64,000 nucleotides of DNA, taken from NCBI RefSeq assembly GCF_003952725.1, contig NZ_CP032509.1:2752001-2816000 (forward strand), written 5' to 3'. The notes under the pieces are model-generated. The model saw nothing but the letters and a program-made list of their open reading frames with translations, searched no databases and was not told where the DNA came from. Below are positions 1 to 3,733 of this stretch, one piece after another (the stretch's first letter is position 1; each line of letters starts with the position of its first letter). A program made the translations under genes and the position numbers. The stretch is from Georhizobium profundi. Lineage in GTDB: Bacteria > Pseudomonadota > Alphaproteobacteria > Rhizobiales > Rhizobiaceae.

Positions 1-215
1 GTCGGCAGGATCTTGGTCCCGGCCCGTTCGGCAAGAGCCGTCGGATCGTCATAGGCCGTCGTGCGGCCGCCAAGACCTTCGGCGATGACGTCGACCTCAC
101 CACCGAGATGCGCCTTCAACGAGGACGGCCAGCGATCGGCATAGCTGTGCCGACCGCCCGTGGCGGCATCGGTGCCCCAGGTGAGGGAATCGCCGAAGCA
201 GAGGATGGTTTTCAT
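1..215 (-). CDS. GDSL/SGNH-family hydrolase (arylesterase-like), N-terminal part, cut by window edge
   Basis: The first 71 codons of a minus-strand gene are present; the rest lies beyond base 1. The protein opens MKTILCFGDSLTWGTDA, which carries the block I GDSL motif with the nucleophilic serine, so it is an SGNH hydrolase acting on ester bonds; the substrate cannot be read. The ATG at 213-215 overlaps the stop of the upstream membrane-protein gene as ATGA, so the two are probably translationally coupled. In well-known rhizobial genomes a GDSL hydrolase of this kind directly follows pdhC and precedes lpdA, which fits the position here apart from the intervening AT-rich gene. Composition is GC-rich like the pdh genes, unlike that neighbour. 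Confidence 0.85.
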   Translation of the reverse strand, partial: MKTILCFGDSLTWGTDAATGGRHSYADRWPSSLKAHLGGEVDVIAEGLGGRTTAYDDPTALAERAGTKILP

Positions 216-928
216 TGAGGCTGAGCCCAGAATTTCAAGCCTTCTGGAGACGTGATATACATTGCGTTGTCGCCAGCACAAAGGACGATGCTTGAACTTA
301 TAAAATACATCGTGCAGCTTTCCGTCGAGCCACCATTAACTGTCATAAACGAATTATCTGACGTCCGTGAATTCACCGCGCCACTGGCGCGGCCAGCAAA
401 AAACACGACAGAGACGGCAGCCAGCAAACTAACTACAATTCCAAAATAAATATTATGCTCGGCTGTCCTTTTTAAAAGAACTAACGCAATGAACGTCACT
501 AGACCAACGTATACTATTATCAGCTGTGATGGGAACGTGTATACCAATATCATCAAAGGCAAAACTGGCAATAGAATTCCAAAATATCCTACCTTATTAA
601 TGGCATGGGATATAATTCTTTCCAAGATGCTCAACGATCCGTTTATTGGATCTGAGCGAAAGTCGCGAATTACATGCTCCGGTGTCCTATCCAACACTCG
701 GTCGGCATACGCGGAAACGACACCACATACTATGCCAAACAAAAATCCTCCAAAAAAAATGGAGCTTATAATTAGATCCTTCGCACCTAGCAGTAGAATG
801 TACCGATAATCTGTAGCCGAAAAATAACCTGCATAATAAATAGTTGATACGAGAAGCCCTGAGGTAGATGCGAGCCCCAAGTACTTCGCTGGATCTGCGC
901 TCAGTCTGTCCCAGACTTCTCGTATCAT
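212..928 (-). CDS. Orphan five-helix membrane protein, AT-rich, inserted in the pdh operon
   Basis: A 238-residue protein I do not recognise. Hydrophobic segments lie at about residues 17-37, 50-73, 113-132, 135-152 and 160-178, giving about five membrane helices and a C-terminal tail of about 60 residues, probably on the periplasmic side, with two cysteines (C205, C217) that could form a disulfide. The start has a good ribosome site (AGGGG) that overlaps the pdhC stop codon, only 8 bases separate the two genes, and its stop overlaps the next gene's start as ATGA. It is therefore built into the pdh transcript. Composition is strikingly foreign: three 60-base lines inside it (301-360, 421-480, 541-600) count 24, 19 and 18 G+C, about 30-40 percent, against GC-rich flanks. 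This suggests recent horizontal gain. No enzymatic motif is visible. Confidence 0.8.
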   Translation of the reverse strand: MIREVWDRLSADPAKYLGLASTSGLLVSTIYYAGYFSATDYRYILLLGAKDLIISSIFFGGFLFGIVCGVVSAYADRVLDRTPEHVIRDFRSDPINGSLSILERIISHAINKVGYFGILLPVLPLMILVYTFPSQLIIVYVGLVTFIALVLLKRTAEHNIYFGIVVSLLAAVSVVFFAGRASGAVNSRTSDNSFMTVNGGSTESCTMYFISSSIVLCAGDNAMYITSPEGLKFWAQPQ

Positions 929-936
929 TGATACCC

Positions 937-2310
937 CTAGACCAGCATTCCCATCGGGTTTTCGATGTAGCGCTTGAAGGCGCCGATCAGTTCGGCTCCG
1001 AGCGCGCCGTCGACGCAGCGATGGTCGGTCGAGAGCGTGACGGTCATGACCTCCGCAATCGCCAGCTCGCCATTCTTCACGACCGGCCGCTTCTCACCAG
1101 CGCCAACCGCAAGGATGGTGGCGTGCGGCGGGTTGATGACGGCGGAGAAGTTCTTGACGCCCATCATGCCCATGTTGGAGACCGCGGACGTTCCGCCCTG
1201 ATACTCCTCGGGCTTCAGCTTGCGGTCGCGGGCGCGCTTGCCGAGATCCTTCATCTCGTTCGAAATCGCAGACAGCGACTTCTCCTCGGCCTTGCGGATG
1301 ATCGGCGTGATCAAGCCGCCCGGGATCGACACGGCAACGCCGACATCGGCGTGCTTGTGCTTGACCATCGCGCTTTCGGTCCAGGACACATTCGCGTCCG
1401 GCACGTCCCTCAGGGCCAAGGCGAGTGCCTTAATCACCAGATCGTTGACCGAAAGCTTGTAGGCGGGCTTGTCGTCGCGCACGGGAGCGGCGTCGTTCAA
1501 CTGCTTGCGCAGCGCCAGAAGCGCGTCAAGCTCGCAATCGACCGATACATAGAAGTGCGGAACGGTCTGCTTGGACTCGACCAGCCGCTTGGCGATGGTC
1601 TTGCGCATGCCGTCATGCGGGACGAGCTCGTAGGAGCCTTCGGCGAAGTTCTTGAGAACCTGTTCGTCGCTGGCGCCTTTCGCCATCGGAGCCGGTGCTG
1701 CGGCCGATATAGACGGGGCCTGCGTCGCGCTTGCCGCTGCCTTCGGCGCGCCACCTTTGGCGGCTGCCTCGATATCGGCCTTCACGATGCGGCCTTTCGG
1801 ACCGGAGCCCGAGACAGCGGTGAGGTCGAGGCCGCTTTCCTTGGCGAGGCGACGGGCGAGCGGCGAGGCGAAAATGCGTTCGCCGTCTTTCTTCGGTGCC
1901 GGAGTAGCCGCGACGGGCGCCTGGTCGGCCACCGGCTTTGCCGCTTCTGCTGGCTTCTCCGCCTTTTCCTCGGATTTCGGTTGTTCCGGCTTTTGCTCGG
2001 GCTGTGCCGATTTCGCCTCGGTTTTCACCTCAGAACCGTCGCCCTTGGCGGCCGCAGCGGCGTCTTCGCCCTCTTCGGCCAGAATGGCGATGACGGCGTT
2101 GACCTTCACGCCTTCGGTGCCGGCCGGCACAACGAGCTTTGCGACCGTGCCTTCGTCGACGGCTTCGACTTCCATCGTCGCCTTGTCGGTCTCGATCTCA
2201 GCGATGACGTCACCGGAGGAGACCTTGTCTCCCTCCTTGACCAGCCATTTTGCGAGATTGCCCTCTTCCATCGTGGGAGAGAGCGCGGGCATCGTGATGT
2301 TGATCGGCAT
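937..2310 (-). CDS. pdhC: Pyruvate dehydrogenase complex E2, dihydrolipoamide acetyltransferase
   Basis: Cytoplasmic core of the pyruvate dehydrogenase complex; it transfers the acetyl group from lipoamide to CoA. Domains in order: one lipoyl domain (residues 1-78) with the lipoylated lysine K43 in [10 protein letters not shown]; a charged Ala/Pro/Glu/Lys linker; a peripheral-subunit binding domain at about 144-182 starting RIFASPLARRLAKE; and the catalytic domain to residue 457 with the HxxxD active site as H430 and D434 (STDHRCVDGA). The length is usual for alphaproteobacteria with a single lipoyl domain. It is third in pdhA-pdhB-pdhC, 13 bases after pdhB. The lipoyl domain is almost the same as the one on E1-beta. 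Confidence 0.97.
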   Translation of the reverse strand: MPINITMPALSPTMEEGNLAKWLVKEGDKVSSGDVIAEIETDKATMEVEAVDEGTVAKLVVPAGTEGVKVNAVIAILAEEGEDAAAAAKGDGSEVKTEAKSAQPEQKPEQPKSEEKAEKPAEAAKPVADQAPVAATPAPKKDGERIFASPLARRLAKESGLDLTAVSGSGPKGRIVKADIEAAAKGGAPKAAASATQAPSISAAAPAPMAKGASDEQVLKNFAEGSYELVPHDGMRKTIAKRLVESKQTVPHFYVSVDCELDALLALRKQLNDAAPVRDDKPAYKLSVNDLVIKALALALRDVPDANVSWTESAMVKHKHADVGVAVSIPGGLITPIIRKAEEKSLSAISNEMKDLGKRARDRKLKPEEYQGGTSAVSNMGMMGVKNFSAVINPPHATILAVGAGEKRPVVKNGELAIAEVMTVTLSTDHRCVDGALGAELIGAFKRYIENPMGMLV

Positions 2311-2323
2311 CTCTTGCCCTCCC

Positions 2324-3733
2324 TCAGGCTTTGTAAGTCACGGCTTTCACAGCATCGACGACTTCCTGGACGTTCGGCAGAGCGAGCTTTTCCAGGTTGG
2401 CGGCGTAAGGCATCGGCACGTCCTTGCCTGCTATCGTGATGATCGGCGCGTCCAGATAATCGAACGCCTGCTGCATCACGCGCGTGGCGATCTCGGTGCC
2501 GACGGACGATTGCGGGAAACCTTCTTCCACGGTGACCAAACGACCCGTCTTCTTCACCGATTCGATGACGGTCGGCAGATCCATCGGGCGGATGGTGCGC
2601 AGGTCGATCAACTCGACATCGATGCCCAGTCCGGCCAGTTCGTCCATGGCCTTGACCGCATAGGTCATGCCGATGCCGAAAGAGACGATCGTGACGTCCG
2701 TACCCTTTTTGTGGATGCGGGCCTTGCCGATCGGCAGGACGAAATCGTCCATCTTCGGGACGTCGAAGCTCTGGCCGTAGAGGATTTCGTTTTCGAGGAA
2801 GATGATCGGGTTGGGATCGCGAATAGCAGCCTTGAGCAGGCCCTTGGCGTCGGCTGCCGTATAAGGCATGACAACCTTGAGGCCCGGGATGTGGCCGTAC
2901 CATGCGGCATAGCACTGCGAGTGCTGTGCACCGACGCGAGCTGCGGCGCCATTCGGTCCACGGAAGACGATCGGCGCACCCATCTGGCCACCGGCCATGT
3001 AAAGGGTCTTGGCAGCCGAATTGACGATGTGGTCGATCGCCTGCATGGCGAAGTTGAACGTCATGAATTCGACGATCGGCTTCAGTCCAGACATGGCGGC
3101 ACCGACGCCTACGCCGGCAAAGCCGTGCTCGGTGATCGGCGTATCGACCACGCGCTTGGCGCCAAACTCGTCCAGCAGCCCCTGTGTGATCTTGTAGGCG
3201 CCCTGATATTCGGCGACTTCTTCACCCATGATGAAGACGTCCTTGTCGCGGCGCATCTCCTCGGCCATGGCGTCGCGGAGCGCTTCTCGCACCGTCGTCG
3301 ATACCATTTCGGTGCCTTCCGGAATATCCGGATCGGACTGCGCTTCGACCTTGGGCTGCGCCGGGACCTTGCCGCTTTCCTTGGCGCCTTCGGCCTCGCC
3401 TTTCGACTCCGTCTTGGGAGCTTCCGCTTCGGCAGGCGCTTCGGCTTCTGCCTTCTTGTCACCACCGGACGCAGCGGCCGATGCGTCTTCGCCCTCTTCG
3501 GCAAGGATCGCGATGACGGCATTCACCTTGACGTTCTCGGTGCCCTCCGGAACCACGATCTTGGCGATCGTACCTTCATCGACGGCTTCGACTTCCATCG
3601 TCGCCTTATCGGTCTCGATCTCGGCGATGACGTCACCGGCGGTGACCGTATCGCCTTCCTTTTTCAACCATTTCGACAGCGTGCCCTCTTCCATCGTCGG
3701 GGACAGCGCCGGCATCAGAATTTCAACAGACAT
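2324..3733 (-). CDS. pdhB: Pyruvate dehydrogenase E1 beta subunit with N-terminal lipoyl domain
   Basis: Beta half of the thiamine-diphosphate-dependent E1 component, which decarboxylates pyruvate and reductively acetylates lipoamide. At 469 residues it is longer than a plain E1-beta because residues 1-78 form a biotinyl/lipoyl domain with K43 in [10 protein letters not shown]. An acidic linker rich in Ala, Glu and Lys follows, and the transketolase-like E1-beta body begins near residue 145 ([20 protein letters not shown]). A lipoyl domain on E1-beta is typical of alphaproteobacteria. It follows pdhA by 15 bases and precedes pdhC by 13, so the three form one operon and supply E1 and E2 in fixed ratio. 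Confidence 0.97.

Follow-up and report, generated by a model that had tools for sequence, protein, structure and literature searches.

The orphan gene near the start of the window (the whole 64,000-nucleotide stretch of Georhizobium profundi DNA analyzed here) is probably a single foreign gene that replaced the short spacer between pdhC and a GDSL-type hydrolase gene after the split of this lineage from its two sequenced congeners; we consider an account combining a permissive slot with coupling to the neighboring genes to fit the evidence better than the alternatives weighed below. The reading of this gene as a captured foreign gene is well supported, and its product is most probably an accessory membrane protein acquired recently. 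Because no donor or relative is known, its horizontal origin is read from composition and from absence in relatives. Direct adjacency of pdhC and the hydrolase gene is just one common state of this junction, with the orphan gene as one filling of a variable operon slot, and new genes seem to have settled there repeatedly.

Table 1. Features at the junction of pdhC and the hydrolase gene; positions are those of the window.
Feature	Position	Strand	Basis
GDSL-type hydrolase gene, 5' part, host flank	1..215	(-)	full protein; congener Pfam
ATGA overlap of the orphan TGA stop (214-212) and the hydrolase ATG (215-213)	212..215	(-)	sequence; congener comparison
Orphan membrane protein gene, 238 aa, 43.7% G+C	212..928	(-)	ORF list; composition; homology negatives
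Inverted repeat, 3' arm, within codons 25-28	845..856	(-)	repeat scan; fold
Inverted repeat, 5' arm, perfect 12 nt, including U and G of the orphan start codon	916..927	(-)	repeat scan; fold
pdhC stop TAG (939-937) with the 8-nt spacer GGGTATCA	929..939	(-)	congener comparison
pdhC, dihydrolipoyl acetyltransferase (E2 of pyruvate dehydrogenase), host flank	937..2310	(-)	ORF list

The initial annotation placed an ORF between pdhC and the hydrolase gene, and we recovered the same frame (Table 1). None of 5000 random sequences with the same first-order composition contained an ORF of this length (the longest had 178 codons); hence, it is not a chance frame. The gene is co-directional with its neighbors, closely spaced, and flanked on either side by conserved operon. 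Relatives of pdhC are present in 61 of 61 genomes. The hydrolase, which has 212 residues in the genome and extends past the window edge, is assigned to the GDSL type by its congener copy (Pfam PF13472, E 9.2e-20, and PF00657), and the gene after it is, from the look of its sequence, presumably lpdA. The tight coupling geometry proposed for both ends of the orphan also holds. Its start codon lies 8 nt past the pdhC TAG, with TAGGGG as a plausible Shine–Dalgarno site overlapping that stop, and its own stop overlaps the hydrolase start as ATGA.

The claim of a foreign composition was likewise borne out. The G+C content at the three codon positions of the orphan is 46, 42 and 43%, compared to 66, 45 and 80% in pdhC (63.5% overall) and 64, 41 and 76% in pdhB (60.4% overall), with third-position values of 0.43 versus 0.76–0.80. 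In a sliding profile of the window, G+C falls below 50% in only two 500-base bins (0.434 and 0.446), both over this gene. The line counts first reported (24, 19 and 18 G+C per 60) are exact for lines 301, 421 and 541, but these are among its lowest lines, and the accompanying figure of 30–40% is too low for the gene as a whole. By itself, such a composition can also be seen in a gene that evolves fast or has only just emerged.

The comparison with the congeners captures the state before the arrival of the gene. In both of them (G001 and G002), pdhC and the hydrolase gene are separated by an identical, empty 10-nt spacer, reading TAG-GGACGGTTTG-ATGAAAACC (TAG-GGACGGTTTG-ATG up to the hydrolase start codon), and the matching flanks in the window genome read TAG-GGGTATCA-ATG...CCTCA-ATGAAAACC. 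Identity to G001 in successive 100-nt blocks outward from the insert is 0.97, 0.97, 0.95 and 0.95 on the left and 0.97, 0.93, 0.97 and 0.99 on the right; for G002, the first two blocks give 0.97 and 0.89 on the left and 0.92 and 0.90 on the right. Given the identical empty spacers and host identity right up to the insert, the orphan must have arrived in this lineage. Further, homology with the empty site restarts at the hydrolase ATG; thus, the stop codon of the orphan sits in host-derived sequence.

The protein was found in one of the three genus members, its own genome alone, and a protein search of 100 genomes likewise returned only that genome, with the other 99 negative. The initial annotation had expected absence from close relatives, and this is what we observed; it had also held that an old operon member would be found at this place in every close relative, with codon use to match, and we found neither. 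An old member of the operon lost in all relatives is thereby nearly refuted: both congeners and the 99 other genomes lack the gene, and the empty spacer of the congeners is identical.

Homologs of the orphan were sought widely. A search of ~5.8 billion proteins returned no match at E ≤ 0.001, nor at E ≤ 10 among 1350 word-sharing candidates, and in the same collection residues 150–238 had no match at E ≤ 1 among 57 candidates; this word-based search requires shared 5-residue words, and remote relatives can therefore be missed. The comparison with public proteins that had been recommended thus yielded no relative. Genome contigs, viral contigs, plasmids and phages contained no relative of the orphan, and the 721-nt stretch had no match in plasmids at the DNA level. 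Pfam gave nothing above its cut-off of 30 bits (the best match reached 13.8 bits, E 0.055), PHROGs and PADLOC profiles gave 0 families each at E ≤ 1, and NCBIfam and PDB sequences gave no match. The patchy distribution of homologs foreseen in the initial annotation was not seen, as none was detected in any collection searched.

Weak matches were recovered in two of 397 genomes of the order besides its own, both partial (E 7.7e-5 and 2.2e-4), and in one of 385 genomes of the class besides its own (E 8.2e-4); all three look chance-like. The two from the order are, judging by their sequences, presumably an ABC permease and a phosphatidate cytidylyltransferase. We considered homology to LivM-like and CdsA-like proteins and rejected it, the matched ORFs looking like ordinary membrane proteins and the E-values being chance-like over 397 genomes.

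The absence of homologs from every collection searched would also be expected if the gene had emerged de novo from non-coding DNA at the locus. However, the ancestral spacer comprises just 10 nt, and a DNA search with the 721-nt stretch found no other match better than E 0.76 in the three genus genomes; hence, there is no local non-coding source, and we regard such a birth as very improbable.

As for the manner of insertion, the insert contains no integrase ORF in the ORF list, a repeat scan found no terminal repeats at it, and a tRNA scan found no tRNA gene in its own or the congener loci. The heptamer TCAATGA at both ends of the insert was rejected as a target-site duplication, as the empty site reads TTTGATGA; the two ATGA contexts largely dictate its occurrence at both ends, and it has no match to the ancestral spacer.

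We also weighed whether the insert is a neutral passenger, brought in by illegitimate recombination, non-polar on the hydrolase gene and lpdA, lacking a selected role and bound to decay. The youth of the insertion and the lack of detected relatives are compatible with this, as are the short pieces found at other junctions, such as coiled-coil ORFs of 42–51 aa and DUF559-cluster ORFs of 83 aa; the intact 238-codon frame, the hydrophobic segments and the precise junctions speak against it, and we hold it to be rather unlikely. The initial annotation went too far in calling the capture selected, since a passenger merely avoiding polarity would look alike.

To place the captured gene in context, we compared the junction across relatives, as had been suggested, and found the congeners empty and other genomes variously filled. 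The survey comprised 224 loci (30 + 4 + 30 + 80 + 80 by source). Removing 4 that lacked a pdhC end and 16 duplicates of identical junctions left 204, with 182 having the hydrolase gene downstream. One source was a DNA pattern for a single C-terminal motif, which matched 179 of 394 genomes, with 80 of at least 120 places lacking the locus being fetched; another consisted of the best 80 of 571 matches. With hydrolase starts extrapolated from tblastn, the gap between the two genes is less than 30 nt in 72 of the 182 junctions, 30–149 nt in 43 and at least 150 nt in 67; the last figure counts junctions and not events, because related species are not independent. The earlier statement that the hydrolase gene comes immediately after pdhC in familiar rhizobia thus describes the 72 short gaps but not the 67 long ones.

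We clustered the occupant ORFs of the 67 long junctions by all-against-all blastp (E ≤ 1e-4) and compared one ORF per family to Pfam. This revealed at least ten families without mutual similarity at that threshold, with several clusters including short or shifted-frame pieces and some loci holding two occupant types. The largest is formed by HdeD-like proteins (21 loci; DUF308, E 9.8e-21 for one), followed by DUF559 proteins (12 loci; E 5.5e-31 for one) and short coiled-coil proteins (12 loci). Smaller groups comprise a 171–175 aa protein with a probable signal peptide (6 loci), a 151–155 aa four-helix protein (5 loci, the L004 group), a 67–68 aa CxxC protein (5 loci) and an 86-aa membrane protein (2 loci). 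Singletons include the orphan itself, a pYEATS protein (L015; PF20305, E 2.2e-11), an NYN protein (L214; E 4.6e-13) and the occupants of L103 and L188. Since the junction holds unrelated genes in other genera, the capture in the window is not unique. Even within one genus (g54) its states differ: a gene of the four-helix group in L004, a 513-nt gap in L182, a 212-nt insert coding for the CxxC protein in L183 and a 15-nt gap in L184. The gap in L182 has the same size as that in L079, which lies on a contig of equal length and whose ORF is a DUF559 member.

Some minor features of this set are recorded here. Genes or fragments of the DUF559 cluster lie at this junction in L071, L079, L092, L096, L098, L107, L112, L117, L123, L125, L179 and L193; at least two of these loci (L071 and L079) show a repeat-like PSPSPQGGG tail, as if spread by a repeat element. 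For 22 of the 204 pdhC ends, the hydrolase gene was not found within the fetched stretch (L018, L029, L047, L048, L147–L152, L167, L174, L175, L189–L191, L207, L219, L222 and L224–L226), and in L018 and L029 a membrane ORF directly follows pdhC.

The closest parallel to the orphan is L015, from another genus of the family (G013), where a pYEATS gene (2832–3488 of that locus, 219 aa) lies at the junction. Like the orphan, it is a single AT-rich gene (43%) ending as ATGA at the hydrolase gene, and it overlaps the pdhC stop as TAATG; unlike the orphan, to which it is unrelated by blastp, its product is without a strong membrane segment at the strict cut-off. These two loci show the largest drops in G+C among the 67 (−0.22 in L015 and −0.19 for the window insert), with L080 next at −0.15. 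The HdeD-like occupants resemble the orphan in being multi-pass membrane proteins between pdhC and the hydrolase, but they have host-like G+C, overlap the hydrolase start as ATGA in only 1 of 21 loci (L042) and show no blastp similarity to the orphan protein. ATGA endings are so often possible because 145 of the 182 junctions have ATGA at the hydrolase start.

The small membrane proteins of the L004 group, all five of which are also ATGA-ended, raise the alternative that the orphan is a very fast-evolving member of such a group, inherited vertically. This is improbable, as the all-against-all comparison leaves the orphan protein alone, the two congeners share the same empty spacer, and its composition lies 19 points off that of pdhC.

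Two other junctions of the operon served as controls. Across 80 named loci, gaps of at least 150 nt were found in 8 of 78 pdhB–pdhC junctions, 27 of 79 pdhC–hydrolase junctions and 50 of 79 hydrolase–lpdA junctions. The last of these is occupied more often, so the pdhC–hydrolase junction is not alone in accepting added genes. Clustering the longest ORF on either strand per occupied junction, some of them spurious antisense frames, gave 6 clusters in 48 hydrolase–lpdA junctions, 11 in 26 pdhC–hydrolase junctions and 4 in 8 pdhB–pdhC junctions. At hydrolase–lpdA, the three largest clusters hold 43 of the 48, and pdhB–pdhC is, on few cases, as varied per occupied junction as pdhC–hydrolase. Our conclusion is that this end of the operon can accommodate additional genes, with pdhC–hydrolase holding the most clusters of the three junctions; we claim no rate. 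Short membrane ORFs occur in L080 at both pdhB–pdhC (100 aa, in a gap of 50% G+C) and pdhC–hydrolase (86 aa, 43%), and L142 has an 85-aa ORF between pdhB and pdhC in a gap of 39% G+C.

In kind, the orphan is an ORFan in an operon, an already known type. Price and colleagues reportedly treated ORFan and 'alien' genes in operons in 2006, in the setting of operon evolution. The window matches that description in having a gene without relatives in an otherwise conserved operon; it differs in that unrelated genes fill the same junction elsewhere and in that the stop codon lies in host sequence. ORFan genes inside operons also appear as a known kind in PMC10138114, which cites that work. Hot spots of integration located between core genes, reported for E. 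coli among others (PMC2617782), likewise combine one locus with many alternative contents; the present case differs in that no integrase ORF, tRNA gene or terminal repeats were found and in that a core operon with all genes in one direction has mostly received just one or two small genes. The literature covered, mostly listings and the opening lines of abstracts, contained nothing on the pdhC–hydrolase junction as an insertion site.

More broadly, the junction probably tolerates gene insertion across the family, with insertions persisting if the downstream hydrolase and lpdA genes stay expressed. A more ambitious version of this, possible in our view though doubtful as a whole, is that in Rhizobiaceae it forms a translationally coupled slot in which unrelated, sometimes AT-rich orphans are repeatedly captured, with the breakpoint at the hydrolase ATGA. 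The host start would then supply the stop of the newcomer and the core operon would keep running, providing a steady promoter for foreign membrane or conflict genes without an island or an integrase. An arylesterase study from 2001 (cited in PMC12542648) reportedly points to a cost of blocking the operon in this region, and such a cost would limit successful inserts to non-polar ones; the arylesterase is probably the counterpart of the hydrolase here, and the cost would act through lpdA. What merits further attention is that unrelated genes have repeatedly filled one junction of a core operon in a way that preserves coupling. How brand-new genes are fitted into working operons without breakage is an open question in genome evolution, and here the state before (two congeners), the state after and parallel fillings elsewhere can be compared side by side. 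If the proposal is true, a core metabolic operon offers a ready-made promoter for foreign genes.

The orphan product would span the membrane several times and carry a small domain at its C-terminus. Of the five helices initially annotated, four are strong in a strict hydropathy scan (starts at residues 53, 113, 134 and 160), and the first, near 16–36, is weaker and recognized only by eye. A single-sequence AlphaFold2 model (mean pLDDT 49.8, too weak to trust) has helices followed by about five strands at 193–235, so the tail, as modeled, may be a small β domain. The translation contains three cysteines (C68, C205 and C217). The latter two confirm the cysteine pair attributed earlier to a periplasmic tail, but the periplasmic side is unproven and hinges on the helix count, four or five: if the count is even and the N-terminus cytoplasmic, the tail would lie in the cytoplasm. 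Most likely, the product is an accessory membrane or conflict (immunity or defense-like) protein rather than a part of pyruvate dehydrogenase, although the function is a guess. The pYEATS domain is linked to conflict systems; our literature search for this link found no paper. Since small AT-rich membrane orphans and a pYEATS gene occupy the slot, a role in conflict or surface protection is, by analogy, the leading idea, albeit a speculative one that we hold with low confidence.

With respect to expression, the scans for promoters and terminators were at chance level in positions 1–2400 (1 promoter-like site versus 0.8 expected; 4 terminator-like sites versus 2.8 expected), and the orphan is therefore expected on the pdh transcript. 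On its coding strand, it contains one sigma-70-like match (543–516) and one weak terminator-like stem (764–748). The gene, its composition, the empty sites of the congeners, the overlaps at its ends and the variety of occupants at the junction are directly observed, whereas we infer a horizontal origin, co-transcription with the pdh operon and coupling through a predicted stem at the start codon. This stem would be formed by a perfect 12-nt inverted repeat (Table 1), the like of which arose in 44 of 3000 random sequences of like composition. In the predicted fold, the U and G of the start codon lie inside the stem, which has 14 contiguous and 4 further pairs; the fold of the 150-nt start region is only modestly stable (z −1.78, with 11 of 200 shuffles as good). 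The start regions of L015, L004 and L080 gave z-scores of −3.05, −1.88 and −4.12, and by eye none of them repeats the arrangement in the window; strong folding close to starts is, thus, not special to the orphan. Ribosomes that finish pdhC, 8 nt before the orphan start, would sit over the base of the stem and could open it, such that initiation at the orphan could depend on the translation of pdhC, and ribosomes completing the orphan could move on to the hydrolase at the ATGA. The inverted repeat could be regulatory or, instead, a scar of snap-back synthesis at the insertion.
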